This document shows positions 5,440 through 28,553 of a stretch of DNA of 29,329 nucleotides, one piece after another (positions within the stretch are counted from its first letter, which is position 1; every line of letters starts with the position of its first letter). This stretch comes from a virus. A program made the translations under genes and the position numbers. The stretch covers positions 1-29,329 of the IMG/VR virus record IMGVR_UViG_3300042559_002565; one strand, 5' to 3'. Below the pieces are notes generated by a model. The model was not told the DNA's origin, made no database searches, and saw only the letters and a program-made list of their open reading frames with translations.

Positions 5440-6485
5440 TTGGCTTTCCCCTTTCGCCCCGTGCCCCCTGCGCTCCCCGTGCCGCCTGCTGATGCCGCCG
5501 AAGCTGCGGCGGCTACTGCGGCTGATGCTACTTGCGATACTACAACGGCGACGGCTACTGGTGCGGCCTGCTCTTTCTCCTCTTGGCTGAGGTCATTGCC
5601 CAAGGTGGTGAGCGCGGTCACCGCCTCGCCGATAGCCTCGATCGCCGCCTCGGCGGGCGGGGGCTCTGGGGATGGCGTGACTGACGGTACGGGTTCTACG
5701 GATGGTACGGGTGTGACGGATTCTACGGGGGTTGGACTCGGGGTCGGCGTGGGCGTCGGTTCCGGGGACGGCGTGACGGATGGTACGGGTGTGGACGTGG
5801 GGAGAACGGTCGGGGAGGGCGGTACGGTTGGTACGGGGGTCTGACTGGGCTCGGGCGTGGGCGTCGGCGTGGGCGTGGGCTCGGGGGTCGGTTCCGGGGT
5901 AGGGCTCGGCGTTGGTGTCGGCTCGGGTGTGGGCTCGGGTGTGGGCTCGCTAGACGGATACTCTGACGGCGTGGGCGTGGGCGTGGGCGTTGGCAACTCG
6001 GATGGGATGGGTGGCGGAGACGCGACAGGCGGAGTCGGATCAAGGACGAGTTGAAGATTGGTGAGCAGGTCGTAGTAGCCGCCAACTGGAAACGGCTCTT
6101 CTGGGTGCATACAGCCGTTTGCGTTGCAGGGTCCGAATCGACCTGCGCGCAGCCGGTACACGGCTGGCTCTAGGTTGATCTGAATCAGCGACGCGTAGGA
6201 CACACCATCGTCATCGCTGGCGGCGAGCATCACCCCTGTCTCGTTGTAGAGCCACAAGGCCGAGTCCATAAAGTGACCGGCAGGTGGGGTCGCACACCAC
6301 AGCACGCCTGGCTCGTCGCACAGCAGGGTGCGTGCGGTGAAGCGGATTGGCTCGGTGACCACGACAAAGTAGTCGGAGGTCTCGGTGACGGTGCGACGGA
6401 TCTCGCTCTCGTTCGCGCGCACGATCGGCAGGAAGATGAGCGTGCTGAAGATGATCCCCAGCAGTGGGAATGCGAGCCGCCTCAC
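5436..6485 (-). CDS. Secreted/envelope-anchored Pro/Thr-rich protein
   Basis: A 349-aa protein with a GTG start overlapping the upstream stop (GTGA). It has an N-terminal signal peptide ([24 protein letters not shown]). Residues about 27-150 are a beta-rich extracellular-looking domain with four cysteines (C56, C64, C120, C125), which could form two disulfides. Residues about 150-275 are a low-complexity P/T/S/E linker. The C-terminus (about 308-335) is Ala/Val-rich and hydrophobic, followed by basic residues (GRKGKAK), like a membrane anchor with a stop-transfer tail. It could be a lysis accessory, a superinfection-exclusion protein or a surface-exposed envelope protein. The coding DNA of the N-terminal part differs in composition from the rest of the genome. 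Confidence 0.7.
5640..6000 (-). repeat. Low-complexity tract encoding Pro/Thr/Ser/Glu repeats
   Basis: On the plus strand it reads as many runs of GTGGGCGTG/GGCTCGGGT-type hexamers. It encodes the PTPTPTP and PEPTPEP linker of the secreted protein. It is a coding repeat, likely variable in length by slippage. Confidence 0.85.
5947..5959 (-). repeat. Dispersed motif, partial in-gene copy (13-base core)
   Basis: ATCCGTCTAGCGA on the minus strand. It encodes YPSSE near the start of the Pro/Thr linker, in the same reading phase as the other in-gene copies. The 3' GATGCC part has diverged to GAGCCC. Confidence 0.75.
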
Positions 6486-8495: not shown

Positions 8496-8539
8496 GTGTC
8501 TCCTTTTTTTGGCATCGCTAGACGGATGCTCTACCTCGG
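8496..8539 (-). promoter_or_regulatory. Intergenic 17-bp motif plus A7 tract before the tail fibre gene
   Basis: A perfect motif copy (8511-8527, 17/17) is followed directly by AAAAAAA (8504-8510 on the minus strand), then GGAG and the ATG at 8495. Here the A-tract abuts the motif. Confidence 0.8.
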
Positions 8540-9949
8540 TCAGCCCTCTGAGACGCGTAGCCCGCTGATACCCTGTCGCCTCGGTTGGTCGATGGTGAGT
8601 TCATAATAGCGCTGGAAGCTGCGATCCTCGAATCCCATTGAGAGGTTCTCGATCCTGTAGTAGGCCGCGGGTGTGAGCCCGAGCCCGGGGGCGAAGATGC
8701 TGACCCACTGCCCTGCTCGCCATCGGTTGATCTGGCTCCACGTGCTGACCCCGGTGCGGGCGTACCCGTTTACGAGCCCGTACTCGTTGGCGCCGCCCGC
8801 AATGGCGCCCCTGATGGTGAGGCTGATGCTCCTCGGTGGGCCACTTCGCGCTCGCCCGAAAAACACGGCGGCGCTGAGGTCATTGACCACCTTACTTCGC
8901 TTAGTGCGGTCGGACGCCTTCGCGGTCGGCATCTCGATGATCGCCTCGGCGCGTGGGCCTCCTCGGGCGGTGAGTGCGCCCGGGCCCTGCGGGCTTGCAA
9001 GGTTGTAGGTGCGGAGGTACGCCGTATTGGCGAAGTTGGCGTCGTAGCGGCTATTGAAGCTCGCCGCCTGCGCGAGGATGCGCTTGAGTAGGCGGTCATG
9101 GTCGTAGTCCACCTTGATTTCTCGGGCGGTGGTTTTCCACGCCGCCCCCGTGCCGCTGAATAGTTCTGACGCTGGGTCGGTGACGATCTCGAAGGGTGCC
9201 GCCTCGGTGGCGGTCGGGTAGGTGGTTGCGAGGGTGCGTACCGTGCCGTAGATGAGTTTCCCGCGCTCATCCACGTAGTATCGCCGTACGACACCGTTGA
9301 GGCCCTGCGCCGCCTCGGCGACGGTGTCGAGGGCACTGCGGAGCGTGCCTGCGGCGATCTCTACGGTGCCGAGGCTCGCGGATGCGCTCCCGTAGTACTC
9401 GGCTCCGAGCGTGGCGTCAAAGATCGCCTTAGTGGCGGCATCCTGTCGGGCGCCTACGAGGCTGAGGAGTGCGGTGATGATCTGTTGGTCGGTCTTACCG
9501 CTGTAGATGATTGGGCCTACGTTGCGCGTGGCGAAGGTCGTAGCGGCTCCCCCGCGGTAGATGAGGGTGCGCTCGAGCCAGGCGGTTGGGTCGGCGACGG
9601 TGACTTCAGTCTCGGTGCCCAACCCGTTGGGTAGCAGGGTGACGGAGATTGACTGGACGAACCCGCGGAATAGGGGCACGGTGACGCTGACGTCGTCGTC
9701 AAAGAAGCGTACGACGGCGTTATCGTCCATCGCGAGCGTCCACGGCACGCCGCTCGGGGTGCTCGGTTGCGTGACGGTGAAGGACATTGACGCGCCGCTG
9801 CCTGACGCATCCTGCGTAAGCTTGAGCGCTGCGGGCTCGACGTAGGGGTACGTTGGGTTGCCCGCGGCCCCTGCGATGTCGAGGAGGTTGCTATTGGCGC
9901 CCGCGTTCCAAGTGACGCCGCCGATGGTGAGGCGGAACGGGTGCGCCAT
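8540..9949 (-). CDS. Tail hub / distal tail protein (minor tail protein)
   Basis: A 469-aa beta-rich protein encoded directly after the tape measure, the classical place for the distal tail/hub protein. Features fit siphoviral hub proteins: an N-terminal beta domain (RLTIGGVTWNAG), a FFDDDVSVTVPLFRGFVQSI segment typical of hub entry domains, and a central RRYYVDERGKLIYGT stretch. No peptidase motif or membrane segment is seen. Start 9949 overlaps the tape-measure stop (TAATG). Role by position: forms the platform between tail tube and fibre. Confidence 0.75.
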   Translation of the reverse strand: MAHPFRLTIGGVTWNAGANSNLLDIAGAAGNPTYPYVEPAALKLTQDASGSGASMSFTVTQPSTPSGVPWTLAMDDNAVVRFFDDDVSVTVPLFRGFVQSISVTLLPNGLGTETEVTVADPTAWLERTLIYRGGAATTFATRNVGPIIYSGKTDQQIITALLSLVGARQDAATKAIFDATLGAEYYGSASASLGTVEIAAGTLRSALDTVAEAAQGLNGVVRRYYVDERGKLIYGTVRTLATTYPTATEAAPFEIVTDPASELFSGTGAAWKTTAREIKVDYDHDRLLKRILAQAASFNSRYDANFANTAYLRTYNLASPQGPGALTARGGPRAEAIIEMPTAKASDRTKRSKVVNDLSAAVFFGRARSGPPRSISLTIRGAIAGGANEYGLVNGYARTGVSTWSQINRWRAGQWVSIFAPGLGLTPAAYYRIENLSMGFEDRSFQRYYELTIDQPRRQGISGLRVSEG

Positions 9950-11550
9950 TAGTAGCCCCTACGGCCCGTGCCCGCATTGGCGGTTGAGCCCATGACCCTC
10001 GTGACCGTTGGTACCAACTGCTCGTTTCCGATACGTACGTTTACGGTGGTGGCGGGCTTACCGCCGTACTTGTCGTTCATAGGGTTGGCGCTCGTGCCCG
10101 TGCCGCCCGTGCCCGGTGCGGCGCCGCCGTTGATAAACTTATCTACGCCGCTGAGGTCGATGCCCGCGAGACCTGCGATCGCTTTGATGATGATGCCCAT
10201 CGGGCCGTTCCAAAAGAAGCCGATGATGGTGCGGATGAGCCCGATCACGAAGTTGAATGCGGCGCCGAGGGCGTCGAATAGCCCGCCTACGGCGTCTCGG
10301 AATCCTTCGCTACTGGCGTAGAGGGCGGCGAACGCGGCGATAAGCCCGATGATGGCGAGGACGATGATGCCAACTGGGTTGGCGCTCATAACGATGTTCA
10401 CGATGCCCTGGATGATGGCGTACGCCTTCATGACGGTCTGTACGGCGGTCATGACCATCTGATACGTCTTGAAGGCTGCGATCATAGCGACGATGCCCGC
10501 GGTGATGGCGAGCACTGCCTCTTTGTTGTCGGCGAGGAACCCGAAGACCCCCTTCACGGCGGGCATAACGTTATTGCGGAGGATGTCGCCCAAGGTGCCG
10601 AAGGCTGAGGCGAGTACTGGCCCTACGTTGCGCGCTACGTCGAGCAGTGTTGGCATGACGTCTCTCTTGAAGCCCTCGTAGAGTTCCTTCGCCGTGGCGA
10701 TGATGGTCTCGATCGCTGGCTTCAGTTTCTCGATGGCGGGGAGCACGTGGTTGATGAAGGCATTGGTGAGGGCGAGTGCCACTGGTAGGAGGGCGTCGCC
10801 GATTCCCGCTTTGAGGTCTTCCATGCGGGCGGTAAGGGTGCGTTGGGTGTTAGCCAATCCGGTGCTCGTGCGGGCGAAGTCGCCCTGCTGTAGGGCGGTC
10901 TGCGCCATGATCTCGCCCTGCGCGGCGAGTACTTTCTGTTGCGGCGTGAGCGCCGTCTTAGTCGTCTTGATGAGGCCCATCGCGAGTGCCCGTGCTCGTA
11001 GTGTGGCCTCGTCGAGCAGCACGCCGTACTTGCGTAGTGGGAGGCTCTCGCCTCGGAGCCCCGCGCTGATGGAGGTGATCGCCTCTTCTACGCTCGTGTT
11101 GGAGAAGCTCGCGAGGTCTGATGCAAGGGTGGTGAGTTCCGTCGAGAAGCCTACGAGCCCGTCGCCCGTTAGCCCGGCGCTCTTCCCGAAGACGGCGAAT
11201 CCCGCAGCGGCGTCCATCGCTTGAGTCTTCGATTGCCCGAAGGCGGTGGCGGCGGTCGCTGCGAAGGCCTCGATCTCGGGCGCCTGGTCTCCGAATACCT
11301 GCCCTGTCTTAGCGATCGTCTCTTGCAGGTCGCGACTGGCGTTGATCGTGTCGCCGATGCCGCTGACCACGCCGTCGAAGGCGCGGATGGCGATGCCCCC
11401 GACGAAGGTGCCGAGGGCGGTGCCGATGGCGGTGCCGCTCTTGATCGTGTTCTTCGAGAGCCCCGCCATTGACTTGTTGATGCGGCTGATCTTCGGGCTG
11501 ATCCCGTCGGACGCCGTGAACGGGATGTGGACTGATGCGGCGCCTGCCAT
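9949..11550 (-). CDS. Tape measure protein
   Basis: A 533-aa protein. The N-terminal part (IPFTASDGISPKISRINKSMAGL) and the segment about 105-240 match TP901-type tape measures (QSKTQAMDAAAGFAVFGKSAGLTG; LPLRKYGVLLDEATLRARAL). About 340-460 contain several hydrophobic helices (AVLAITAGIVAMIAAF; VGIIVLAIIGLIAAFAALY; FNFVIGLIRTIIGFFW), which are expected to insert into the host membrane. At about 0.15 nm per residue it predicts a tail of roughly 80 nm. The start overlaps the upstream stop (TAATG) with a GGGGAGGGG site. It sets tail length and is ejected first. Confidence 0.9.
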   Translation of the reverse strand: MAGAASVHIPFTASDGISPKISRINKSMAGLSKNTIKSGTAIGTALGTFVGGIAIRAFDGVVSGIGDTINASRDLQETIAKTGQVFGDQAPEIEAFAATAATAFGQSKTQAMDAAAGFAVFGKSAGLTGDGLVGFSTELTTLASDLASFSNTSVEEAITSISAGLRGESLPLRKYGVLLDEATLRARALAMGLIKTTKTALTPQQKVLAAQGEIMAQTALQQGDFARTSTGLANTQRTLTARMEDLKAGIGDALLPVALALTNAFINHVLPAIEKLKPAIETIIATAKELYEGFKRDVMPTLLDVARNVGPVLASAFGTLGDILRNNVMPAVKGVFGFLADNKEAVLAITAGIVAMIAAFKTYQMVMTAVQTVMKAYAIIQGIVNIVMSANPVGIIVLAIIGLIAAFAALYASSEGFRDAVGGLFDALGAAFNFVIGLIRTIIGFFWNGPMGIIIKAIAGLAGIDLSGVDKFINGGAAPGTGGTGTSANPMNDKYGGKPATTVNVRIGNEQLVPTVTRVMGSTANAGTGRRGY

Positions 11551-11996
11551 TATCCCCTCCCCCGCTTCATGAGCGGCTTACCTGCGGCCTTATTGACGGA
11601 TCGCTGTAGGCGTGCCGTGTACGCCTCCTCCGCTTGCGCGATTGTAGCCGCTGCGGCCTCATCCATGAAGCGGTTATTCCTCGGGTTGCGCCCGGTGCCG
11701 CGGAGTGCCATGTAGCGGTAGTACGCGCCCTTCACGTCGGCGCGGTTGGACCCTGGGTTGATGCGGGCGAGGTAGCCTGGCTTTTTGTATCGGGCGGGCT
11801 TGACGCCGATTGCCCCCTGTAGGCGCCCCGTGAGGACGGGTGCTCGGGGCTTCGCCGCCTTCACGACCTCTTGGGCGGCGGCCTTCGAGGCGTCACTGAG
11901 CGCCCGGTTGATGACCTTGGGGTTGAAGCCTGAGCGCAGGGCGATCTCCATGGCGAGTACCTGCTCGGTGTCCACCTTGATCTTGAATAACGCCAT
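11550..11996 (-). CDS. HK97 gp10-like tail/neck protein
   Basis: The start at 11996 (MALFKIKVDTEQVLAME) is chosen because it lies two bases after the end of the frameshifted chaperone frame and has an AGAGG site; the frame to 12038 is a shadow. The 148-aa product is basic and has KAAKPRAPVLTGRLQGAIGV, the hallmark of the HK97-gp10_like family, whose members act in neck/tail joining. It lies between the chaperone and the tape measure, whereas relatives usually precede the major tail protein. A minor-tail role is possible. Confidence 0.7.
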   Translation of the reverse strand: MALFKIKVDTEQVLAMEIALRSGFNPKVINRALSDASKAAAQEVVKAAKPRAPVLTGRLQGAIGVKPARYKKPGYLARINPGSNRADVKGAYYRYMALRGTGRNPRNNRFMDEAAAATIAQAEEAYTARLQRSVNKAAGKPLMKRGRG

Positions 11997-11998
11997 TG

Positions 11999-12447
11999 CT
12001 ACCTCTTTTTCGGCTGCATCTCGGACCAGAGTATCCACGTGCGGAGTACCTTATCGGCGGGCTCCTCCATGATGGACCACGGTGTCTGGCCGAACGCTTC
12101 CCCGAGTATAACGGCGATAAGCTCGATAGACGGTGCTACTGGCTGCCCGAGCGCGATCCGCTTCGCGTCGAGCCTTAGGCGTTTGGGACGTCGGTGAGGG
12201 CCTTACCCCACTTCTCGATTAGTTGGCTCCACGCTCGGGTGTCGGCGTCGCCCATGTCGGTGGCGGCGCTCCCGTCTACGCTCTTGAAGTTGTGGCTGAC
12301 TACGACACGCTTGAGGGCGGCTACGATCCTCGGGAGATTCTCCGACTGGACCTCTACCACCTCGTTCATGCTTACGTTGGCGCGCATCTCTGCGTACCAT
12401 CCGGCGTACTCGCCCTCTAGTTCGATGCGTACGGTCTTGACTGCCAT
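11999..12447 (-). CDS. Tail assembly chaperone, -1 frameshift product (gpGT-like)
   Basis: A -1 shift at CCCAAAC (12187-12181) replaces the NA* end with KRLRLDAKRIALGQPVAPS and continues to a TAG at 11999-12001, giving about 149 aa. The added T domain contains SIELIAVILGEAFGQTPW and ends EMQPKKR. It fills the only gap between the G frame and the gp10-like start, and its stop is followed two bases later by that start. This matches the G/GT arrangement of lambda-like tails. Confidence 0.85.
12175..12447 (-). CDS. Tail assembly chaperone, unshifted product (gpG-like)
   Basis: A 90-aa protein encoded right after the major tail protein, the standard place for the gpG-like chaperone. It begins MAVKTVRIELEGEYAGWYAEMRAN and is followed by a helical domain ending ...KWGKALTDVPNA. 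A slippery CCCAAAC sits three codons before its stop. The start has an AAAGGAG site, and a motif/A7 element lies upstream. The family binds the tape measure and delivers tail subunits. Both forms are expected to be made in a fixed ratio. Confidence 0.85.
   Translation of the reverse strand: MAVKTVRIELEGEYAGWYAEMRANVSMNEVVEVQSENLPRIVAALKRVVVSHNFKSVDGSAATDMGDADTRAWSQLIEKWGKALTDVPNA
12181..12187 (-). other. Programmed -1 ribosomal frameshift site, CCCAAAC
   Basis: A canonical X XXY YYZ heptamer in the correct phase (GTC CCA AAC): both tRNAs can re-pair to CCC AAA after slipping back one base. The zero-frame stop follows after one codon. No clear downstream stem-loop was identified by eye. Confidence 0.85.
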
Positions 12448-12504
12448 GCGTCTGCTCCTTTCGCTGTTTTTTTGGCGCCTAGCGGCATCGCTAGACGGAT
12501 ACCC
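12448..12504 (-). promoter_or_regulatory. Intergenic 17-bp motif plus A7 tract before the tail chaperone
   Basis: A perfect motif copy (12484-12500) is separated by GCTAGGCGCC from AAAAAAA (12467-12473), which is followed by the AAAGGAG ribosome site of the chaperone gene. It lies immediately after the major tail protein stop. Confidence 0.8.
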
Positions 12505-13515
12505 TTATGGGCGGGCGCTGCTCGGGCTCGTGACGACTACCTCGATGCTCTTGCCCGAGGTCTGGTCGTACGCTGCGCGGAGGCCAACCGTATTCACGAC
12601 TAGGCCGTCCTGATCGGCGCCGAGTGGGGTGATGCTCTCGATGATCCACGACCCGCGAAGCTCGAGACCGTAGCCGGCGCTCGTGGTAGCCGTGAGTCGC
12701 AGGAAGCGCTGCTCCCCGATCTCGTCGATGCCCCATGCCCCGTTGGCGATTGCCGCGGCGTTGGATGCCACGGTCAGTTCCATGGTGGCGTTGAGCACGC
12801 CCGTGTATGCCGCGGTGGCGGCTACGAGGCTTGCGTCGAGGGCGCTGATCATCGTGAGGCCCGGCTCGATGGTCGCCGTGAACGACATTACGTGGTCGTA
12901 CTCGGTGTCGCCGCTCCCGTCGGGGAAGGCGCTATCGGTGTACAACTTGAACAATCGGGAGGGCACAAGTGCCGGGGCGGTCGGTGCCGCGGTGTTGGCG
13001 TCGGCATTGGTGGCGATGTCGATCGCTGCCCACGTCACGCCCATCTGTAGGGTGCCCGTTCCCTCGCCGCTGAGGGTGATTTCGGTTGGTACGCATCCCT
13101 TCGCGACGTACTGCTGTACGCCGTCGGTAAGGAGGAGGCTATACCCCTTGTAGGTGTCTACTGCGGTCTGGCTTGGGCTCCACGTCCATACGTACGGGCC
13201 CGTGCCGGTGTCGGTGATTGTGGCGAGGGAGTCGAAGGGGATCATTGCTGATGCCATGTCGGCGTCGGTCTCGCCCCATGTGATCACTGGTGCTCGGGAG
13301 GTGATGACTGGTCGGTTGGCGAGGATCTGCGTGCGTACGCCTACCGTCCTATCGTCGCCCGTGTTGAGTTCGATGCCGAGGTCGATGGCGCCGAGGGCGT
13401 CCACCATGATGATCTGCCCGGTTGTGCCCGCGAACGATGCCGCGGTGCCGTAGGTGCTCTCACTCTTGGCGATGACTTTCGTGAAGCTCTTGGCGCCGTA
13501 CGTTGGGCTTGGCAT
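12505..13515 (-). CDS. Major tail protein
   Basis: A 336-aa beta-rich, Thr/Ala/Gly-rich protein (MPSPTYGAKSFTKVIAKSES; VITWGETDADM; GPYVWTWSPS), encoded after the neck genes and directly before the G/GT chaperone, which identifies it as the tail-tube subunit. The central region resembles a tail-tube fold with an Ig-like insertion (about 190-260), but I did not verify this. The start has a GGGGAGA site 6-7 bases upstream. It polymerises around the tape measure to form the tube. Confidence 0.85.
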   Translation of the reverse strand: MPSPTYGAKSFTKVIAKSESTYGTAASFAGTTGQIIMVDALGAIDLGIELNTGDDRTVGVRTQILANRPVITSRAPVITWGETDADMASAMIPFDSLATITDTGTGPYVWTWSPSQTAVDTYKGYSLLLTDGVQQYVAKGCVPTEITLSGEGTGTLQMGVTWAAIDIATNADANTAAPTAPALVPSRLFKLYTDSAFPDGSGDTEYDHVMSFTATIEPGLTMISALDASLVAATAAYTGVLNATMELTVASNAAAIANGAWGIDEIGEQRFLRLTATTSAGYGLELRGSWIIESITPLGADQDGLVVNTVGLRAAYDQTSGKSIEVVVTSPSSARP

Positions 13516-13533
13516 CGGTATTCTCCCCTCTAA

Positions 13534-13977
13534 CTATGCGAAGGACTTGCCTTCAAGGTTTACCACATCTACGTCCGCTGCGATAGTGATGTACGTCTGA
13601 TCCCCCCACGTTGCGTTCCCGATGCTCGTGCTCGTGACGCTCGCCTGGGCGGCCTCTCCGCCGAGCAGTACGGTACCATCATACGCGTTTCGGAGCCATG
13701 TGCGCCATAGCAGGAGGTCGGTGTATCGGCGCTCGCTGTCGGGCTGTAGGCTGAGGTAGATGGTGACGGTGCACGTCAAGACGGTGCGCCTGCTCGCCGC
13801 CCCGTACTCGATGCTGTCGGGCCCTGGCATGACCACGGCTGCGGGGAGGGCGCCGAGGGTGTCGGGGGGTACGGCGTGCGCTGCGCGGATTCCCCCTCCC
13901 GCTCGCCCGGTGGGTGCGGTAAGGGCGGTCAGTCGAGCGGCGAGCGCCTGATGGATGGCGAGGTCGCTCATCGGCAT
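13534..13977 (-). CDS. Tail terminator / tail completion protein
   Basis: A 147-aa protein between the head-tail connector and the major tail protein, the place of gpU/tail-terminator proteins. N-terminal helix: MPMSDLAIHQALAARLTAL. Central strands follow (TVLTCTVTIYLSLQPDSERRY; TYITIAADVDVVN), compatible with the small alpha/beta fold of the family. The start overlaps the upstream stop (TAATG); an alternative ATG two codons in has no better site. It caps the tail and forms the interface with the head. Confidence 0.7.
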   Translation of the reverse strand: MPMSDLAIHQALAARLTALTAPTGRAGGGIRAAHAVPPDTLGALPAAVVMPGPDSIEYGAASRRTVLTCTVTIYLSLQPDSERRYTDLLLWRTWLRNAYDGTVLLGGEAAQASVTSTSIGNATWGDQTYITIAADVDVVNLEGKSFA

Positions 13978-14585
13978 TAGGACGCTACGCCCTTTCGGTT
14001 GCGGTATTGGTCAAGCAGGGCTACTGCGGCTGGGTGCATGCGCGTGCTCATGCGGGTCACGCCGCCTGCGTCGCCGGTTCCGATGACCCCGAAGGGTGCG
14101 TTTCGGGAGGCGTATAGTTTCGCGACCTCCAATAGGCACGCCTGTTTTACCGCTGCGGGGATAGCCGTCCACCCCCACGTGCCGATGATCTTCACGCCCT
14201 TAGTTGAGTGCTTGGGGAAGTTGAGGATTGACGTGTCTGATGACTCGATCCCCGTGTATGGGCGCCCGTCGAGGGCGGCGTTGTATGGCGTGAGGTTGTA
14301 GGTGCCTGCGCCCCAGACTTCGCTGTAGGTGCCGTCGATGCCGTCGTCGGTGGCGAGCGTGGTGACGGTGAGTAGGTCGTCTACGTCGATGCGGTAGTAC
14401 TCGAGGGCGGTGTAGTAGCGGGTCTGGGTGCCCTGTGGGCCGAATCCTGCCGGGCGGTCGCAGTACTGGTCGATGGCGCTGGAAGCTGCGGTGATAAGGC
14501 TATCGACGAGCGTATCCTCGGTGGTATCGCTGCTCGCGATGCCGAGGATTGCTTTCGCCTCTGCTCGGGTGGCGTAGTCGGTCAT
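13977..14585 (-). CDS. Head-tail connector (gp6-like adaptor)
   Basis: A 202-aa protein. The N-terminal part has the pattern of gp6/gp15-like connectors: TDYATRAEAKAILGI, TLVDSLITAASSAIDQYCDRP, which is the start of a helical bundle. A strand-rich insertion follows (RYYTALEYYRIDVDDLLTVT), then a C-terminal helix rich in Arg (AVALLDQYRNRKG). In this family a ring of subunits sits under the portal. It overlaps both neighbours (ATGA and TAATG). Confidence 0.8.
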   Translation of the reverse strand: MTDYATRAEAKAILGIASSDTTEDTLVDSLITAASSAIDQYCDRPAGFGPQGTQTRYYTALEYYRIDVDDLLTVTTLATDDGIDGTYSEVWGAGTYNLTPYNAALDGRPYTGIESSDTSILNFPKHSTKGVKIIGTWGWTAIPAAVKQACLLEVAKLYASRNAPFGVIGTGDAGGVTRMSTRMHPAAVALLDQYRNRKGVAS

Positions 14586-14854
14586 TGTCGGTTGCCTACG
14601 CGCATAACGTACGCGATCTCATCCTGTGCGCCGGTGCGGATGCCGTAGAGCGCCTCGTTGGCGGGTAGGCGGAACTCGAACGTAGCGTCGGTGTGTAGCC
14701 CGAAGCCCGTTCCGGCGCTCACCGTGGCGTTTCCGATCTCGATGCCGTGGTTAGCATGCGTGTGGAGGATGACGGTGCACCCGTCGGTGTCTGCTCGGGC
14801 GAGCAGGGTCGGCGTTGCGGTCACGGTGATCTGCGCGGTGGTGATCTCTGCCAT
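14582..14854 (-). CDS. Small beta-rich head-region protein, 90 aa
   Basis: Alternating hydrophobic residues throughout (ITTAQITVTATPTLLARAD; TVILHTHANHGIEIGNATV) indicate a small beta sandwich. There are no cysteines apart from one, and no membrane segment. It lies between capsid and connector genes, where decoration or stabilising proteins are common, so a capsid decoration role is plausible but unproven. Its stop overlaps the connector start (ATGA). Confidence 0.65.
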   Translation of the reverse strand: MAEITTAQITVTATPTLLARADTDGCTVILHTHANHGIEIGNATVSAGTGFGLHTDATFEFRLPANEALYGIRTGAQDEIAYVMRVGNRQ

Positions 14855-14857
14855 GCC

Positions 14858-15106
14858 TTACCCCCTCTTGGTCTTACGTGTCTTTCGCTCGGTGGTGATT
14901 GTAGCGGTCTCGATGGCCTCGGGTGCGGCATCGTTAGACGGATGCTCATCGCGGGCCTCGCCTACGAGGCTCCCGTATCCTGCCGCGGCAAGCTGGACCG
15001 CTTCGCCGTACGGTAGTTCCATGGTGCCGCCGACGTATGGCCACTCTACCCCGTTGCGGGTGCCTGTGACGTGGATGTTCATGCGGATGGTCTGTACCTT
15101 GCTCAT
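14858..15106 (-). CDS. Small head-region protein with motif-encoded linker, 82 aa
   Basis: It begins MSKVQTIRMNIHVTGTRNGV; the first 50 residues are a compact strand-rich domain (VEWPYVGGTMELPYGEAVQL). The C-terminus is charged and probably disordered (ETATITTERKTRKTKRG). The junction HPSNDA at residues 55-60 is encoded by a motif copy. The start has a GGAGGAGC site. It is placed right after the capsid hairpin. Possible roles are capsid decoration or a head-tail adaptor; I cannot decide. Confidence 0.65.
   Translation of the reverse strand: MSKVQTIRMNIHVTGTRNGVEWPYVGGTMELPYGEAVQLAAAGYGSLVGEARDEHPSNDAAPEAIETATITTERKTRKTKRG
14927..14943 (-). repeat. Dispersed 17-bp motif, in-gene copy (82-aa head protein)
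   Basis: 16/17 match, with one substitution that changes AGC to AAC (Ser to Asn). Same orientation and same reading phase as the other in-gene copies. Confidence 0.9.
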
Positions 15107-15131
15107 TGCTCCTCCTCTCGGCTATGCGGTC

Positions 15132-15157
15132 GGGGGGCGGGATTTCTCCCGCCCCCC
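15132..15157 (-). terminator. Perfect GC-rich hairpin behind the capsid gene
   Basis: An 11-bp perfect stem (GGGGGGCGGGA with TCCCGCCCCCC) with a GAAA loop on the transcript. It lies 26 bases below the capsid stop. No T-run follows on the minus strand, so it may be a partial terminator or a 3' stabiliser that raises capsid mRNA above its neighbours. Confidence 0.55.
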
Positions 15158-15183
15158 TCCGCTGCTCCTCTTACCCTACTGGG

Positions 15184-16341
15184 TTAGACGTTTGCGCCCT
15201 TGAACGACTTCACGGCGCTCGCCTGAACGAGGCCCGTGGCGCCGCGAACCTGGACACGGTACGTGACCAAGCCGTTGGCGAAGGCGTACTCGTTGGACAC
15301 TGCGATCTCGACACCGCCTACGAGGAGGGTCTTGATCTCCTTGAGATCACCGAAGAGGACGCTTACGGCCTCATCGCCGGTGTCTACCAGTGCGCCTGAC
15401 CAGACTGGGAAGCCGAGGAGCGTATCAGGCCCACCGAGATTCCCCGCCTCGAAGATCGGGCGGTTCTGGCTGTCGAGCAACTTGCGGACTCCGCCGAGGG
15501 TCGCATCGTTCATGATGAACCCTGCGCCTGGAGCCTTGCGGTAGCGCTGATTGACCGAGTACACGAGGTCTACGAGGTCGGCGTAAACCGGGGCCACTGC
15601 GGCGCCCGTCTTACCAACCGTCGCGGCTGCGGCAACGGCTGGAGCCGCTACTGCACCGTGAGCGATACCGACTTCCTGACCGGCCTTCTCCGCGATCATC
15701 GCTGAGATGTCGAACGCGGCGTCGCGCACGAGTTCATCGGTGACCTGGATCAGGGTGGCGTACTTCGCTGGGGTCAGCGAGAGCGACGACAGGGTGCCGT
15801 CCGACTCGCCGATCGAGCCCGCCTCGGAGACGGCGGCAGCGGTGCCGAGTGCCGTCACGCGTGGGAACTGGAAGTTATTGCCATTGCTCACCGTGTACAG
15901 GTCGATGACCCGTGCGTCGATGAATGGGTTTACCTGGCCCGCGACCACGTTCACCCGGGCGGCGATGCCGACTGGGTTGCCGAGGCCTGTGGACTTGGTG
16001 ACATCGCGCTTCTCGAAGTCGAAGGCGACGCGGCCCCCGTTCATGCCGATGCGGCGAAGCTCGGACTCGTCCGTGGCGCGCTCTGCCTTCACTGGCGCCT
16101 CGATGGCGGCGGCGAAGCGGGTGCGCGACTCGAGGGCGGCCTTCTCGGCGGCCTCGATCTTCTCTGCGGCGGCGATCTGCGCGGCCTTCGAGTCCATGTC
16201 TGCGAACGCGCGGTCCACAGTCTGGTTCTCTTCGGCGGTGAGGTCACGCTTGGCGTCGGCGGCGGCCTCTAGGACTGCCTTAGCCGCTGCGGCTGCGCGC
16301 TGGCGCTCGTCGTGGAGCGCGTTGATGAGGTTCTCGCTCAT
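15184..16341 (-). CDS. Major capsid protein, HK97 fold
   Basis: A 385-aa protein. Residues 1-85 are a charged Ala/Glu-rich coiled coil (LINALHDERQRAAAAAKAVLE), typical of the delta scaffolding domain removed by the prohead protease. The remainder shows the HK97 capsid pattern: an N-arm with VNPFIDARVIDLYTVSNGNNFQFPR, a spine region (TPAKYATLIQVTDELVRDAAFD), and ending SNEYAFANGLVTYRVQVRGATGLV. The cleavage site is probably near residues 90-110, just before the arm. The codon choice is more uniform than elsewhere, as expected for the most expressed gene. The start has a GGGGAAAC site. It forms the capsid shell. Confidence 0.9.
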   Translation of the reverse strand: MSENLINALHDERQRAAAAAKAVLEAAADAKRDLTAEENQTVDRAFADMDSKAAQIAAAEKIEAAEKAALESRTRFAAAIEAPVKAERATDESELRRIGMNGGRVAFDFEKRDVTKSTGLGNPVGIAARVNVVAGQVNPFIDARVIDLYTVSNGNNFQFPRVTALGTAAAVSEAGSIGESDGTLSSLSLTPAKYATLIQVTDELVRDAAFDISAMIAEKAGQEVGIAHGAVAAPAVAAAATVGKTGAAVAPVYADLVDLVYSVNQRYRKAPGAGFIMNDATLGGVRKLLDSQNRPIFEAGNLGGPDTLLGFPVWSGALVDTGDEAVSVLFGDLKEIKTLLVGGVEIAVSNEYAFANGLVTYRVQVRGATGLVQASAVKSFKGANV

Positions 16342-16437
16342 GATGTTTCCCCTTTCTCTTCTATGCCTATTCCGCTCGGGTGTTCCCCTTGCGCGTGACC
16401 CCCGGGGGAGTCGAGGCGTGTGAGATCGGGCCTGCGG
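16342..16437 (-). promoter_or_regulatory. Spacer between protease and capsid genes
   Basis: A 96-base non-coding spacer. It holds a C5G5 palindromic core (around 16400-16410) and a purine-rich, AT-richer leader (GGAATAGGCATAGAAGAGAAAGGGG) before the capsid start. It may host a capsid promoter or a leader hairpin; no convincing -35/-10 pair was identified. Confidence 0.3.
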
Positions 16438-18030
16438 TTATTCTCCGATGCGCTCCTTCAAGGCGAGCATCTTTGCCCTGACTGACGTCGGGACGGTGAC
16501 GCTTCCCTCGAACGCACGGATGATAGCAGATGCATCCTCCTCCGCAACCGTGTCGCCGCGGAGCCAGGTGCTGACTGCTTTCCATAGGCCCTCCGCTTCG
16601 ATGCCGCGGCGCTTCGCGAGCCCGCGTACGGATGCGAGTCCGATGGTGCCCGGGTATGCGGGCGTGTGCCCCGTGAGCAGGCTTACCTCGTGGAGGGCGG
16701 CCTCATTGACGGTGCGCTTATTGCCATCCCAATCCTCATCCATCACGCGGAATCCGAATGACCATGCGATTGCTTGGGGGTCGCGCTGCGCGAGTGCGAG
16801 CAGGTGATCGCCGATTGGGCTCTTGATAATGTCGGCGGTGACCTGTAGCCCGCGCTCATCCTGGCTGAGGCTGAGGCTGGTCGGGGTTGCGGCGAGCATC
16901 TGACTCTCATCGTGCCCGTGGAGTAGTTTGACTACCTTCCCCGAAGCTGCGACCTGCCCGAGGCTGCGGGTGAATGCGCCCGGTGCCAGCCGCTCGATGA
17001 ATGGCATTGGGCTCGAGTCTGAGTTGAATAGCGCGGCGTAGCCGACAATCGTGCGGGCCTCGGTGTCCACGCGTAGTTCACCCGTGTAGGCTCGCGTCTC
17101 CACTTCCCCTTTGACCGCATGGTATTCCGCCGGTGCCTCGGTGGGCGCCTCGGTTGGGGTCTCGGTCGGGGTCTCTACTGGGGTCTCTGTTGGCTCGACG
17201 TCGGTGCGCTCTTGCTCATTGTCCATTGCCATCACCACCCTTTCGGCGTAATCATACGCGCGGCTCGCCTTATCCGTTGTATCGCCGCTGCCCCATAGCA
17301 GATGTGCGATCTGCCCTGCGGTGGGGCGCTCGCCCTCCGCGATCGGGCTGACGCCCTCTAGGTCGCTGAGGTGGCGTGCGATCCACGCCCTCATCCTACG
17401 CCATTTATCCTCGGTTGCGCGACCCCGTGCTAGATCGCGGGCCTCGGTGATCGTATTGGGGCGGAGTCCGTCGCCCTTGTATTCAAGTAGGTCGAGGCCC
17501 CTGATGGCGTTTTGGCGCATAAAGTCGGGCACGCTGAGGTCTGCGCGTGATTCTGGGTTGGACGCGTTTTCGGCATCGCTAGACGGATTCTCCTCCTCGG
17601 GCTTATCCTCCTCGCCCTCGCCCGGGTACTCCGCCGTAAGCTCGGATACTGCCTCCTCGGGCGTCCACGGGCTGATCTCGTACTTGTCGAGCGCCATGGC
17701 GCGTACGTCGGCGTTGTCGTCTACGGCGTATTCCAACTCATCGCCGTACTTCTCTACGAGCAGGCCGTACTTGTAATCCTTGAAGGCGAGCCCGGTGGCG
17801 AAGGGTGTGCCCTCGAAGTCATTGAGATGCACGCCTACGATGCCCGCTACGCCGTGCTCTTGTAGCCATGCTCGGGTCTCCTCTAGGCGGTCGATGCTGC
17901 GCGCGCTGACGATCTCGACCTGGAAGTCTCCGCTCATAACGGCGCGGTTGATCGCGTCGATGAGTGGCTGACGTGGGGTGTCTCCCGTGGTGGTTAGCGT
18001 GCCGTCGATGTCGGCGATGAGCACGCTCAC
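16438..18030 (-). CDS. HAD phosphatase - phage domain - prohead protease fusion
   Basis: A 530-aa continuous frame. Residues 1-135 are a HAD-type phosphatase: DIDGTL (motif I, D7/D9), VSARS (motif II), FKDYKYG (motif III Lys), AVDDNADV (motif IV). Residues 148-153 (NPSSDA) are a linker encoded by a perfect motif copy. About 166-270 are a helical phage domain (VPDFMRQNAIRGLDLLE ... AGQIAHLLWG). Then comes a T/E/P linker (277-302). About 310-530 are an HK97-type (S78/U35-like) prohead protease: YAALFNS, LLHGHDES with His371/373, WSFGF with Ser424, HEVSLLT with Glu448. GTG start; overlaps the portal stop (GTGA). The protease trims the capsid delta domain. The phosphatase's substrate is unknown; it may end-process nucleic acid. 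Confidence 0.85.
   Translation of the reverse strand: MSVLIADIDGTLTTTGDTPRQPLIDAINRAVMSGDFQVEIVSARSIDRLEETRAWLQEHGVAGIVGVHLNDFEGTPFATGLAFKDYKYGLLVEKYGDELEYAVDDNADVRAMALDKYEISPWTPEEAVSELTAEYPGEGEEDKPEEENPSSDAENASNPESRADLSVPDFMRQNAIRGLDLLEYKGDGLRPNTITEARDLARGRATEDKWRRMRAWIARHLSDLEGVSPIAEGERPTAGQIAHLLWGSGDTTDKASRAYDYAERVVMAMDNEQERTDVEPTETPVETPTETPTEAPTEAPAEYHAVKGEVETRAYTGELRVDTEARTIVGYAALFNSDSSPMPFIERLAPGAFTRSLGQVAASGKVVKLLHGHDESQMLAATPTSLSLSQDERGLQVTADIIKSPIGDHLLALAQRDPQAIAWSFGFRVMDEDWDGNKRTVNEAALHEVSLLTGHTPAYPGTIGLASVRGLAKRRGIEAEGLWKAVSTWLRGDTVAEEDASAIIRAFEGSVTVPTSVRAKMLALKERIGE
17572..17588 (-). repeat. Dispersed 17-bp motif, in-gene copy (phosphatase/protease fusion)
   Basis: 17/17 match. 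It encodes NPSSDA exactly at the junction after the HAD phosphatase domain. Confidence 0.92.
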
Positions 18031-19289
18031 AGGCCGCTGATCCTCGCCGCCTCATCGGGCGCGATGCCTGACTTGATGAGCGTCTCGTAGATGTTGGCGC
18101 GACCCTGCGTGTCGGCGGTGCCCGCGGGCGCGAAGCCTAGTTGCATGCGGTAGATGGCGCCCTGCCCGTCTGGGAGGGGCGGTAGGTCTTCGATCCTGCG
18201 CGCCTCATCCACGCTGATCCAACCGGTGTTGATGGCGCTGGCTAGGGCGTCGTACCTGCTCTTGGTATCGGCGCGTAGTAGGCCCTCGACGTTGAAGCGG
18301 ATGTATGTGTCTCCGCCGGGGATGAGTCGGGCTAGGCCCGTCTCGATGCGGTCGAGGATTGGCTTGATGGTGAAGGTCACATACTCTTGGGCTTGAAGCT
18401 CGACCGACGCGTATGACACGGCGCCCGGCTTGAGGATGCCGAGCAGGTGGGCGGGCACGCGGAAGATGCGGGCGATCTCCTCCACTTGGAAGCCGCGAAG
18501 CTCGAGGAATTGCGCCTGCTCTGGGGTGATGCTGATGGCGTCAAACTTAGCGCCGCCCGTTAGTACGGCGATGCGGTGGGCGTTGCCGAGGCCCTCGTGA
18601 TGCCGTGCGAAGTTGCGGCGGATGCTCCCCGCCTGCTCCTCGGTGAGGTCGCCCGGCACATTGACGATGCCGCTCGGGGTGGCGTTCTGACCGAAGAAGC
18701 GTCCACCGTACTCTTCTGCGGCGATTGCTACGCCGTAGGTCGCCTTCAGGTGGTCGATTGGGCTGAGGCCGCGGTTGTAGCCTGGCAAGCGGAAGAGCGG
18801 GATGTGGATGATCTCATCCTGCGTGTAAGTCGCCTTCGCGCCTGATGGCGTGAGCACCTCGTACACTGGGAGCCCGTTTACGCGTGTGACGGTGATGGCA
18901 CGCGGTGCGAGTACGTCGAGGAAGACTGGCGCTCCCGTAGTGTCTCGGGTGACGGCGATGAACGCATTGCCGTCGGTGAGCAGGCTCGCGACGATCTGGC
19001 TGACAAGCTCGACGCGCGTGACGCTCTTATCGGGGCTCGGGCTCTCGATCCACGTCGGCTTTGGGCGTAGTGGCTGTCGGAGTCCATTGGTCTTTTGGAA
19101 GGCGTCGAGCGGGAGCCCCCCGACCGTGTCGCTGATGAGGCGGATTGCCGCATATACGGCGCTGATCTGGGTGGCGCGATCCTGGTTGATTTCTACGGGT
19201 GAGTACTGCCCCGGTGGGCCGTCAAAGAATCGGTCAATGCCGATTGCGCGCTGCTCTTGCCTACCGAAGATGCGGTCGATGACGCCCAT
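18027..19289 (-). CDS. Portal protein, HK97 type
   Basis: A 420-aa protein. HK97-type portal signatures: ISAVYAAIRLISDTVGGLPL, YNRGLSPIDHLKATYGVAIAAEEY, FFGQNATPSGIVNVPG, FQVEEIARIFRVPAHLLG and FNVEGLLRADTKSRYDALASAINTGWISVDEARR, in the order expected (clip, wing, stem, crown). The length is ordinary for the family. The start has a GGGAGG site. It forms the dodecameric channel through which DNA enters and leaves the capsid and on which terminase docks. Confidence 0.92.
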   Translation of the reverse strand: MGVIDRIFGRQEQRAIGIDRFFDGPPGQYSPVEINQDRATQISAVYAAIRLISDTVGGLPLDAFQKTNGLRQPLRPKPTWIESPSPDKSVTRVELVSQIVASLLTDGNAFIAVTRDTTGAPVFLDVLAPRAITVTRVNGLPVYEVLTPSGAKATYTQDEIIHIPLFRLPGYNRGLSPIDHLKATYGVAIAAEEYGGRFFGQNATPSGIVNVPGDLTEEQAGSIRRNFARHHEGLGNAHRIAVLTGGAKFDAISITPEQAQFLELRGFQVEEIARIFRVPAHLLGILKPGAVSYASVELQAQEYVTFTIKPILDRIETGLARLIPGGDTYIRFNVEGLLRADTKSRYDALASAINTGWISVDEARRIEDLPPLPDGQGAIYRMQLGFAPAGTADTQGRANIYETLIKSGIAPDEAARISGL

Positions 19290-19311
19290 TAGGCCTCCCC
19301 TGTTAGCGGTG

Positions 19312-19360
19312 GCCCCGGTTGGCGGGGCGCTCCTCGGGCGAGGGTACCATACCGCTCGCC
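19312..19360 (-). other. Two hairpins between large terminase and portal genes
   Basis: On the transcript, GGCGAG/CTCGCC (19337-19360) is followed by GCCCCG/CGGGGC (19312-19328), each with a 6-bp stem, in a 73-base spacer. The second ends just before the portal ribosome site. They may modulate portal translation or mRNA processing. Confidence 0.4.
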
Positions 19361-19362
19361 TC

Positions 19363-20844
19363 TTATAGCGTGATGAAGTTTACTGCCGCTTGGGGTCGCT
19401 CATCGTCGGCGATGATCGCGTTGGCGCGGGCGAGCCCGAAGACGGCGGCGACTGCTAGGTCGATCTTCCTCCCGCCCTTATCTTTCGTCAAGCGGGTGCC
19501 GTGGCGGTCGGTCTTGACTGAGGCGTTGGCGACGTGCCGGGCGAGGCGCTTATCGCCGCTGTGCTTGAGCCTCTGGGTGGTGACGGCGTCGTAGAAGGCG
19601 CTCGTGGCGGGTGTCATGCGGGCGGCGTGTTGCGGGAACTCGGTGATCGGGAGGCCCTCCCCCGCGAGGATTTGCAGGCTGCGTGCCCATCGGAAGGGGT
19701 CGGCGGTGATCTCTCGTACGGTGTGGGTGCGGGCTACTTCCCTGATCCGCTCCTCTACCGCTTCGATGTCTACTCGCCAATGCTCGTCATCCAAGGGGCG
19801 CTCCCATAGCCCCATGACGTCGATGAGTCCATCGCTGAGGCGGATGCCGATGAGGGCGGTGCTATCGTTGGAGAAGCTACCGTCTAGCGCGAGGATGATG
19901 CGGTCGCCCGGGCGGATTTTATCGTCTACGGCGCATAGATCCCATGCCCCTGTCGGTAGCCATGCCTGCGTGCTCGCCACCCACTGGTTGAGGCGCTTTG
20001 TGCGCCACTCGTTTTCGGGTGTGCGCATGATGGCGCTGCGGAAGTCGTCGGCGCTGACGATGTCGCCGTAGCCTGGGTTGGCGGCGGCCCACACCGCCTC
20101 CTCTCGATGGTCGGCGTCTACGGGTGCGCCCCACCAGCGGAAGAAGAAGCTCGGGTCGTCTACCTCATTGACGGCGACGCGCTGCCCATGCTGATACAGG
20201 CGGTGCGCGATGGTGTCTCGCCCGTTGGCGTCGGTGCGTGCTCCCGCGGTGGTGATCATTGCGAGCATCGGTTCTACTCGGGCGCCCTGCGCGAGGGCGA
20301 ACACGTTCCATAGATCCTCGTTGATGACGTGCCCCTCGTCTACGAGGGTGAAGGTCGGGCTGAGGCCCTCTTTCAGGGGTGCATCGCTGCTGACGACGCG
20401 CCAAAGGGTGCCCGTGATCGGGTTCTCGATGGCATCGCGGTACAGGTTGAGCATGCTGCTGAGTTCCGGGTCGAGTTCTACCATGCGGCGCCCGGTGCCG
20501 AAGGTGATACGTGCCTGCTCTCTGTCGCCTGCTACTGAGTACACCTCGCCGCCGTCGGGGCCGAGCACCGTCGCCCAAAGCGCCAACCCGCTGAGTAGGG
20601 CTGACTTCCCGTTCTTACGGGGGAGCCCGATGAGTGCCTGTCGGTGGGCGAGATGCCCATCCTCCCGCTCGCGTAATAGGTCGTCGAGAAGCTGACGCTG
20701 ATACGGGCGTAGGCGGATGGTCTCGCCTACCGCGCCGCCGAGCGACTCCTTCACGATGCGGCAATAGTGCTCGATGAAGGTCGCCGCCTCTTCGCCTCGG
20801 GTGCTCCCCTCCCGTTGCGGTGATCCGTAGAGGGGGGTGCTCAT
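19363..20844 (-). CDS. terL: Terminase large subunit
   Basis: A 493-aa protein. The ATPase half has LRPYQRQLLDDLL (adenine-binding-like), Walker A GLPRKNGKS (73-81), Walker B TFTLVDE (164-170) and the coupling motif MITTAG (196-201). The nuclease half starts about residue 310, with ALDGSFSND (D321) and further acidic positions (TADPF; KIDLAVAAVFGLARA near the end), in an RNase H fold. It is of the HK97-like Terminase_1 type, which often uses cohesive ends, but the end type cannot be read from the sequence. The start overlaps the small subunit stop (ATGA). It drives DNA into the prohead and cuts it. Confidence 0.93.
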   Translation of the reverse strand: MSTPLYGSPQREGSTRGEEAATFIEHYCRIVKESLGGAVGETIRLRPYQRQLLDDLLREREDGHLAHRQALIGLPRKNGKSALLSGLALWATVLGPDGGEVYSVAGDREQARITFGTGRRMVELDPELSSMLNLYRDAIENPITGTLWRVVSSDAPLKEGLSPTFTLVDEGHVINEDLWNVFALAQGARVEPMLAMITTAGARTDANGRDTIAHRLYQHGQRVAVNEVDDPSFFFRWWGAPVDADHREEAVWAAANPGYGDIVSADDFRSAIMRTPENEWRTKRLNQWVASTQAWLPTGAWDLCAVDDKIRPGDRIILALDGSFSNDSTALIGIRLSDGLIDVMGLWERPLDDEHWRVDIEAVEERIREVARTHTVREITADPFRWARSLQILAGEGLPITEFPQHAARMTPATSAFYDAVTTQRLKHSGDKRLARHVANASVKTDRHGTRLTKDKGGRKIDLAVAAVFGLARANAIIADDERPQAAVNFITL

Positions 20845-21341
20845 CCTGCCGCCTTATTCCGTTCCTCATCCTGTTGGGCGACGCGCTGCGCCCGGCGGGC
20901 GAGGAGTAGTTCCAGGGGGCTCGGGGCCGCCTTACTGGTGGACTTCATGCCTACTCGGGCGCTTGGGGTGAGCCCTAGTTCACGGGCTCCCGCGCGCATC
21001 ATCGTGGCGTTATCGCGCATCACCTGATGTAAAGGATTCTTCACGTACTCGCCGTTGCGCCCCTTTACGAGTGGCCCGCTCTTACGGAGGAGCCCCTCCG
21101 CCTCGCGGTATCGGGCGGTCGCCTCGCAGTACGCGCGTAGGGTGTCTACGTCGGCGGCGGTGATGACGCCCGTGTGCCCGACTGCGGCGATTACCTCACG
21201 CCATACGTCGAGGGCGTCTTCAGCGATGTCGGGTGGCGGCTGTAGGGTGCTGAGTGTTGGGCGCGGTTCATTGAGCGGCACGATCTTCCCCTCGGTGGCT
21301 CGGATGGCACTCGGCTTAGGCTTAGGCCCCCGCTTTCCCAT
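20841..21341 (-). CDS. terS: Terminase small subunit, P27 family
   Basis: A 166-aa protein. The N-terminus MGKRGPKPKPSAIR and the segment PPPDIAEDALDVWREVIAAVG, followed by DVDTLRAYCEATARYREAEGLL and KNPLHQVMRDNATMMRAGARELGLTPSAR, match the P27-type small terminase throughout. The tail is charged (QRVAQQDEERNKAAG). The start is preceded by GAGGAGGAGC, an A7 tract and a motif copy. It recognises the packaging site and loads the large subunit. It is the first gene of the late order. Confidence 0.88.
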   Translation of the reverse strand: MGKRGPKPKPSAIRATEGKIVPLNEPRPTLSTLQPPPDIAEDALDVWREVIAAVGHTGVITAADVDTLRAYCEATARYREAEGLLRKSGPLVKGRNGEYVKNPLHQVMRDNATMMRAGARELGLTPSARVGMKSTSKAAPSPLELLLARRAQRVAQQDEERNKAAG

Positions 21342-21380
21342 CGTTTTTTTGCTCCTCCTCTGGCATCGCTAGACGGATTG
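21342..21380 (-). promoter_or_regulatory. Intergenic 17-bp motif plus A7 tract before the small terminase
   Basis: A perfect motif copy (21362-21378) is followed by AGAGGAGGAGC, then AAAAAAA (21344-21350) and the ATG at 21341. It is at the start of the packaging/head/tail block, so it would be a natural place for a late control element. Confidence 0.8.
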
Positions 21381-22244: not shown

Positions 22245-22864
22245 CGTGCCTCCTCGGTGTTGATTGCGTCGAGTATAAGGCGCTCGACGGCCTCTGCGTT
22301 GGATTCTACGCCCAACCGGGTGCGCGTCTCCCGTAGGCGCTCGATCGCCCACTCGTACTGCTCTACTGGCATGCGGAAGAGGAAGCTACGCGATGCCCGC
22401 ATGGCGTAGAAGTCGGCGATGGCGCGGTCGCCGTCGGTGACGGTGAGTACGGGGATGTTCACCGAGGGGCTGACGAGGTCGTCGATCTCCTCCCACGTGA
22501 AGCCCGCTACGCCCGCGAGCCCTGCTCCGAGGGTGTCGAGTTGCGCCTTTAGCCGGCGGTTATCCCAGAGGCTGAGTTCCCCGGTGCGGTTATCGGCGAT
22601 GGCGTACGCTCGGGCCTCGCTTATGCGGTCGGCGGGGTAGTCCACGGCGGTGATCTCTGTCCACCCGAGGCGCTTCGCCGCTTCTACCGTGCCGTTGCCC
22701 GCGACGATGGTGGTGCCCGCGATCACGATCGGCTTACGCTGCCCGAATGCGCTGAGGCTCTTTGCGATGGCGCTGATGTTGCGCTCCGAGTGCACGCGGG
22801 CATTCTCGGGGTCGGGCTGTAGGTCGGCGATCGCTACGGTGCGAAGCTCGATTGGCGCCGTCAT
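22241..22864 (-). CDS. ParB-like nuclease-domain protein 1
   Basis: A 207-aa protein. Residues 8-100 are a ParB/Srx-type domain: VAIADLQPDPENARVH, ISAIAKSLSAFGQRKPIVIA, GNGTVEAAKRLGWTEI, AYAIADNRTGELSLWD. Unlike chromosomal ParB there is no HTH/dimer domain. Instead there is a unique C-terminal helical part (RMPVEQYEWAIERLRETRTRLGVESNAEAVERLIL) that resembles the end of the neighbouring ParB-like protein. Phage ParB-like domains are often fused to methylases or act as nucleases or CTP-dependent clamps; none of that is shown here. It overlaps both neighbours by ATGA. Confidence 0.8.
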   Translation of the reverse strand: MTAPIELRTVAIADLQPDPENARVHSERNISAIAKSLSAFGQRKPIVIAGTTIVAGNGTVEAAKRLGWTEITAVDYPADRISEARAYAIADNRTGELSLWDNRRLKAQLDTLGAGLAGVAGFTWEEIDDLVSPSVNIPVLTVTDGDRAIADFYAMRASRSFLFRMPVEQYEWAIERLRETRTRLGVESNAEAVERLILDAINTEEAR

Positions 22865-24851: not shown

Positions 24852-25325
24852 CTATGGTAGCAGGGAGATGGTGACGGGGGCTATGCCCCTGCTGAGGTTG
24901 ACGCCGAGCGCCTGGAATGCGGCGGGACTGAGGTCGATGGCTTTCTCGCCGGGGCGCCCCTTCGAGCAACTGCACCAATCCACAATGATCACCTTGATGG
25001 TGCGCCCGGTCTTTCGGTGGGTGACGTAGGCCGTGTAGTGCTCGTGGTACGGGTTGTCGTCGCCGATGAGTTCACGCACCGCTGGCCCTGCCGCTGCGTA
25101 GTATTCGACCCTCGGGCCCCACTTGGTCTCGCGGGTGTACCACGCGTTATTCTTGGTAGCGTCGTACCACGATGCTACGCCGTTGACGTGTTTTACTGGG
25201 GTGGGACTGCCGAGCAGGCCCTCGTACGGCGGTACGCTCGGTACGGGCTCGGGAAGCTGGATGGGCGCCGCGCACGCGCTCGCGAGCATGACCGCCGCTG
25301 CCGCCATCGCTAGACGGATAAGCAC
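24852..25325 (-). CDS. RlpA-like double-psi beta-barrel lipoprotein
   Basis: A 157-aa protein from a GTG at 25325; an ATG at 25307 is the alternative. The N-terminus is a signal peptide with an imperfect lipobox (LASAC, Cys18), so it is probably a lipoprotein. Residues about 47-155 follow RlpA double-psi barrels: GVASWYD, TAYVTHRKTGRTIKVIIVDWCS (Asp116), KAIDLSPAAFQALGV, GIAPVTISLL. In RlpA this domain cuts or binds peptidoglycan. Two cysteines replace the usual Asp-Arg-Gly-Pro loop. It is encoded among DNA-metabolism genes and not in the lysis block. A motif copy overlaps the start region. Confidence 0.75.
   Translation of the reverse strand: MLIRLAMAAAAVMLASACAAPIQLPEPVPSVPPYEGLLGSPTPVKHVNGVASWYDATKNNAWYTRETKWGPRVEYYAAAGPAVRELIGDDNPYHEHYTAYVTHRKTGRTIKVIIVDWCSCSKGRPGEKAIDLSPAAFQALGVNLSRGIAPVTISLLP
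25303..25319 (-). repeat. Dispersed 17-bp motif at the RlpA-like start region
   Basis: 16/17 match. The GATG of the motif supplies the internal ATG at 25307. Reading phase differs from the other in-gene copies (ATC CGT CTA GCG ATG), so here it is not selected as a PSSDA linker. Confidence 0.9.
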
Positions 25326-28537: not shown

Positions 28538-28553
28538 TTCACCACTTCCTACC

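Follow-up and report, generated by a model that had tools for sequence, protein, structure and literature searches.

Several groups of phages carry polar motifs that recur across the genome, such as stoperators, Start-Associated Sequences (SAS) and nick sites, of which the last two have no known purpose. The stoperators of the cluster A mycobacteriophages (L5, D29 and Bxb1) are asymmetric 13-bp sites that occur many times per genome, in promoters as well as in the short gaps between genes (PMC9283540). The SAS of the cluster K mycobacteriophages, GGGATAGGAGCCC, are asymmetric 13-bp repeats with a Shine-Dalgarno core (PMC3203893), and the nick motifs TACTRTGMC and CGACN5CCTACTCCGG were described for tf, Rembedalsseter and phiKMV (PMC3517423, PMC11780129). 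The window that was analysed here, i.e., the whole stretch of 29,329 nucleotides, provides an exceptionally clear example: a small genome that is read in one direction and has nine evenly spaced sites, some of which are tolerated in protein linkers, as well as an A-tract that accompanies the motif and a close relative (L184) that has lost both together. The element is best read as a genus-specific, strand-polar recognition site, and we are highly confident that it is real and functional.

A one-directional phage genome and its polar motif

The window is a complete circle of 29,202 bp, with its first and last 127 bases identical and a G+C content of 64%. The minus strand carries nearly all of the genes, all of the long ones are read in one direction, and the gene order is of the siphophage type, i.e., terminase, portal, protease, HK97-type capsid and tail genes, followed by the replication and recombination genes. 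None of the named phages closely matched the window. For the terminase, the closest was Pontimonas phage phiPsal1 (no more than 46% identity), and because the terminase matches were scattered over Planctomycetota, Microvirga and actinophages, each at no more than 46% identity, they point to no one host. The first-pass annotation had named the genes that follow the intergenic motif copies tail fibre, tail chaperone and small terminase. The last name, for the gene with the start codon at 21341, is borne out by a PHROG match, whereas the putative tail fibre gene (6852-8495) and the putative tail chaperone gene (12175-12447, 90 aa) had no informative match and owe their labels to the gene order only. 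The protein family scans (PHROG and Pfam; several genes had no identification) recognised no integrase, repressor, phage RNA polymerase, sigma factor or activator, and the ORF at 26642-27610, among others, had no matches in them. Two neighbouring ParB-like proteins that are alike in their family matches are encoded at 22241-23520 on the minus strand, followed by an HNH nuclease gene at 23517-24044. The gene at 21381-22352 (minus strand) matches the PHROG 'queuine tRNA-ribosyltransferase' as well as the Pfam Tet_JBP oxygenase domain and, together with a C5-methylase insertion in the relative L034, suggests that the phage DNA may carry an oxidised cytosine modification. Perfect GC-rich hairpins, possibly terminators without a U-tract, are located on the minus strand at approximately 28511-28540 and 15130-15160, in intergenic gaps without the motif.

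The minus (coding) strand carries nine strong copies of the motif, ATCCGTCTAGCGATGCC, and the other strand carries none (Table 1); a weak match at 202 with three mismatches was left out of this count. Its core comprises 13 bases, TCCGTCTARCGAT, and with looser edges it extends to 17. The three intergenic copies reported earlier (G, F and C) stand as such, the full set being nine on one strand at even intervals. The other six lie in genes, in spots that tolerate them, e.g., protein linkers: the five mid-gene copies share one reading frame, which yields [NHY]PS[SN][DE][AP] in linkers or repeats, and the sixth (B) is at the start of a signal peptide. The distances from the motif to the next gene start are 15, 20, 36, 72, 303, 541, 544, 1070 and 1230 nt; four of the nine copies thus precede a gene start by no more than 75 nt, a zone that makes up 10.5% of the genome (P 0.01), and there is none directly upstream of the major capsid gene. 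Site F has an inverted half copy after the motif, which gives rise to the local palindrome CTAGCG-ATGC-CGCTAG; it is retained in the relatives L034 and L012 and is absent at the other sites examined. A second 13-mer, TCGAGCTTCGCAG, with seven near copies, seemed polar as well, but was rejected as it is not kept in the relatives and probably reflects coding bias.

Table 1. Positions of the motif copies and A7 tracts in the window
Feature	Position	Strand	Context
Copy I	3205..3221	-	Inside exonuclease gene, codons HPSSDA
Copy H	5943..5959	-	Inside PT-repeat-rich gene 5436-6485, codons YPSSEP
A7	8504-8510	-	0 nt downstream of copy G; 8 nt before ATG 8495
Copy G	8511..8527	-	Intergenic, ATCCGTCTAGCGATGCC, A7 immediately after
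A7	12467-12473	-	10 nt downstream of copy F; 19 nt before ATG 12447
Copy F	12484..12500	-	Intergenic
Copy E	14927..14943	-	Near 3' end of 82-aa gene 14858-15106; next gene start 72 nt on
Copy D	17572..17588	-	Hypervariable linker of head maturation protease gene, codons NPSSDA
A7	21344-21350	-	11 nt downstream of copy C; 2 nt before ATG 21341
Copy C	21362..21378	-	Intergenic, before terminase small subunit gene
Copy B	25303..25319	-	Very start of DPBB lipoprotein gene, IRLAMA frame
Copy A	28791..28807	-	Erf gene, downstream of matched Erf domain, codons NPSSDA

The gaps between the copies on the circle are 2738, 2568, 3973, 2443, 2645, 3790, 3941, 3488 and 3616 bp, which corresponds to a coefficient of variation (CV) of 0.18; copies placed at random are this regular approximately once in 70,000 times (P 1.4e-5; 4e-5 in a shorter run of the test). 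The sets that were used for comparison were no more regular than random, with a CV of 0.99 for the T7 promoters, 0.83 for the tf nick sites and 0.94-1.18 for the D29 and Bxb1 stoperators. In L034, a 1,334-bp insertion would widen one of the gaps to 4.8 kb, but it brings its own motif and A7, which split this gap into 2.4 and 2.4 kb, a single case (n=1). The insertion (3357-4690 of L168, the L034 contig) carries the C5-cytosine methylase gene, after which come the motif with A7, a strong GC hairpin and then the next gene.

A-tracts and conservation among the relatives

A scan of the window for A7 and T7 returned exactly three tracts, all A7 on the minus (coding) strand, while 100 dinucleotide shuffles gave a mean of 0.17 and none of them reached three. 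The A7 runs that the first-pass annotation had reported 0, 10 and 11 nt after the intergenic copies were therefore confirmed in position, offset and rarity, and none occurs without the motif. No A6 runs were found elsewhere in the window, including at any other gene start. The A7 at 21344-21350 sits between the Shine-Dalgarno sequence AGAGGAGGAG and the start codon. Ribosomal slippage at the A7 tracts was considered and rejected as the frame relation is inconsistent among the three sites and the tracts of the relatives range from 6 to 8 in length.

The relatives of the same genus, from IMG/VR, were L032/L167, which are near-identical to the window, L033, L034/L168, L035, and L031 with L012, the last two being near-identical where they overlap. 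All runs of A6 or longer, both in the window and in five relatives, follow a motif copy at a distance of 0-12 nt; these sites are C, F, G, the extra copy of L034 and the in-gene site D of L031 and L012. The extra copy of L034 is intergenic, just before the next gene, and shares 28 of 29 nt with site G. The earlier statement that in-gene copies lack the A-tract consequently holds in the window but fails in L031 and L012, in which A6 follows the in-gene copy at the ortholog of site D. The latter, together with the five copies of the window that are 303-1230 nt from the next start, also speaks against start codons as what defines the unit. Its view as one composite element fared better: A6 or longer occurs only after the motif, the extra copy of L034 has its A7, and both parts are lost in L184.

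The orthologous sites retain the core TCCGTCTARCGAT although the identity of their flanks is no more than 48-90%; in the comparison of site D with L031, the flanks are approximately 50% identical and 12 of the 13 core bases are kept. Among the exonuclease homologs without the motif, those of L207 and L208 are 4 aa shorter exactly at the site of copy I and that of L209 has unrelated residues there. As the same DNA recurs in the intergenic copies, it is the nucleic acid and not the peptide that is constrained. Outside the genus, viral contigs contained the motif as single copies only, and no analogous motif was found in the distant relatives (TerL 46-59%).

L184 shares 89% identity with the window across 4.6 kb that cover sites E and F. 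At site E, 7 of the 17 motif bases are changed, a divergence that only 1.7% of the 17-column windows show; at site F, 4 of 17 are changed, which is unremarkable alone, and the A7 now reads AAATAG at this sole intergenic site covered. Since both the motif and the A-tract are present in L034 and L012, which are less close to the window, their loss in L184 is the more parsimonious history; this holds barring recombination and concerns one lineage and one A-tract. The joint loss is as expected if both act together and, at the level of sequence, supports their functional coupling. A re-specified motif in L184 was rejected as the two altered sites are dissimilar and no other exact occurrence of the altered F site was found.

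Possible roles of the element

The polarity of the motif, its conservation and its near-invariance over 13 bases point to specific recognition, and recognition of DNA is favoured because the sites have no common RNA fold and most of them are far from ribosome-binding sites. We infer a role in transcription and a role for the A-tract as well as the nature of the target, which is most probably DNA rather than RNA. Tentatively, we take the motif to be a phage-specific transcription signal, i.e., a promoter or start site, which is the likeliest of the readings but plausible rather than probable. A factor that is particular to the phage genus or its host would read the core, most probably in the form of DNA; the motif would re-supply transcription approximately every 3 kb along the one-direction genome, and where it is directly before a gene the transcript would start with an A-rich, unstructured leader (A6-A8). 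The orientation of all nine copies is that expected of promoters and, together with their excess at gene starts and the A-rich leader, fits such a signal. Upstream of the motif, the aligned copies showed neither -35/-10 hexamers nor any other conserved block. Moreover, since the T7 promoters are unevenly spaced, a promoter role alone leaves the regular spacing unexplained. Nor does it account for the mid-gene copies, and the five copies far from any gene start, the lack of a copy directly before the major capsid gene and the fact that no phage RNA polymerase or sigma factor was recognised among the scanned proteins also count against it.

It is possible, if doubtful, that the element marks the genome as a polar, regularly spaced site at intervals below approximately 4 kb, right through the genes, and serves a process that involves the whole DNA, such as loading, nicking, packaging or the re-supply of transcription. 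The A-tract would then be a companion where coding constraint allows, and close relatives could differ by having lost or re-specified the element in a coordinated way.

A stoperator-like roadblock, in which a phage repressor bound to asymmetric sites of one orientation halts transcription at intervals in lysogeny, appears rather unlikely. The repressor sites of the cluster A mycobacteriophages are similarly asymmetric, transcription-oriented 13-mers (PMC9283540), in D29 and Bxb1 the polarity follows the direction of transcription, the silencing of a whole genome would suit the regular spacing, and a switch of repressor specificity would suit the clustered change in L184. However, neither an integrase nor a repressor was recognised among the scanned proteins, the D29 and Bxb1 sites are uneven, and the A-tract is left unexplained. 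The orientation of all nine copies on the coding strand is a weak test of this reading in a one-directional genome, in which polarity of transcription is inseparable from that of the strand because all of the long genes run one way.

A localized single-strand nick site, or another polar site of DNA processing (replication, recombination or packaging), we likewise regard as not very probable. The nick motifs of tf, its relatives and the phiKMV-like phages are on one strand, in and between genes, at positions that are kept (PMC3517423, PMC11780129), their density in tf is similar (14 per 46 kb), an HNH nuclease is encoded, and a process on the whole DNA molecule would suit the even spacing. The copies of the window are also on one strand and at the same positions in the relatives, except for the two sites lost in L184. 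However, the tf sites are uneven, an A-tract partner is absent from the nick motifs described to date, phages commonly carry HNH genes, and an assembly cannot reveal nicks. The roadblock and the DNA-processing site match the genome-wide polarity about as well as the transcription signal, and neither accounts for the A-tract.

We consider it unlikely that the signal acts at the RNA level, with an unstructured AUCCGUCUARCGAU in the transcript bound by a protein or RNA of the phage or the host (in antitermination, processing or translation) and the A-tract serving as an open leader for ribosome binding. All nine copies are on the mRNA-sense strand, the A-tracts are 2-19 nt before start codons, around the Shine-Dalgarno sequence, and the reloading of an antiterminator could need regular intervals. 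Against this, the motif sites have no common fold and ordinary folding energies, there was no Rfam match, and the mid-gene copies are distant from ribosome-binding sites. A purely translational enhancer leaves these mid-gene copies and the even spacing unexplained; the promoter and the DNA-binding site, which had been proposed along with a translational enhancer, are still candidates. Finally, it is highly improbable that ordinary A-rich ribosome-binding regions happen to coincide with repeats unrelated to them: the A-tracts are near Shine-Dalgarno sequences, where purines are expected, but the other gene starts lack even A6, the chance of three of three is approximately 1e-5 even if limited to 40 nt upstream of the starts, and the coupling recurs in the relatives, including the in-gene A6 and the paired loss.

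Conventional signals were also screened. A host sigma-70 promoter was rejected as the hexamers are absent near the sites and promoter-like matches were fewer than in the shuffles. CGTCTA in the motif could be read as an ECF -10 element, but this was rejected as the aligned copies have no conserved -35 at the usual distance. Intrinsic terminators were not above the shuffles in number, with a strong GC hairpin only after the extra copy of L034, and no known RNA family or tRNA matched.

Comparison with known polar motifs

By its behaviour, the motif is grouped with the polar multi-copy phage motifs. It is like the stoperators in its short asymmetric core and its many transcription-oriented copies, which are intergenic as well as genome-wide, and unlike them in sequence, since theirs is another one; stoperators are also unevenly spaced, have no A-tract and belong to temperate phages with a known repressor. 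With the SAS it shares the asymmetric 13 bp, an almost uniform orientation and some copies just upstream of start codons. However, the SAS are 3-7 bp before nearly every associated start and only in the non-structural half, whereas most copies in the window are far from starts and the whole genome is covered; moreover, the AGGAG Shine-Dalgarno core of the SAS is absent from TCCGTCTARCGAT. Because these two defining features, start proximity and the AGGAG core, fail, the motif is not an SAS.

The nick motifs of tf, Rembedalsseter and phiKMV are similar in being on one strand, in and between genes, at positions kept in relatives and with approximately 9-14 copies per genome, and they differ in sequence, uneven spacing and the lack of an A-tract. 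In phiKMV (L176), all three exact copies of CGACN5CCTACTCCGG (6314, 13986 and 24128) are inside annotated phage-promoter features, and nick sites and promoters may therefore coincide in that phage. The T7-type promoters resemble the motif as long, near-invariant sequences on the coding strand with some copies inside genes; they are, however, uneven, and no single-subunit RNA polymerase was recognised among the scanned ORFs of the window. It is mainly the even spacing and the coupling to the A-tract that distinguish the motif from the known polar phage examples measured here.
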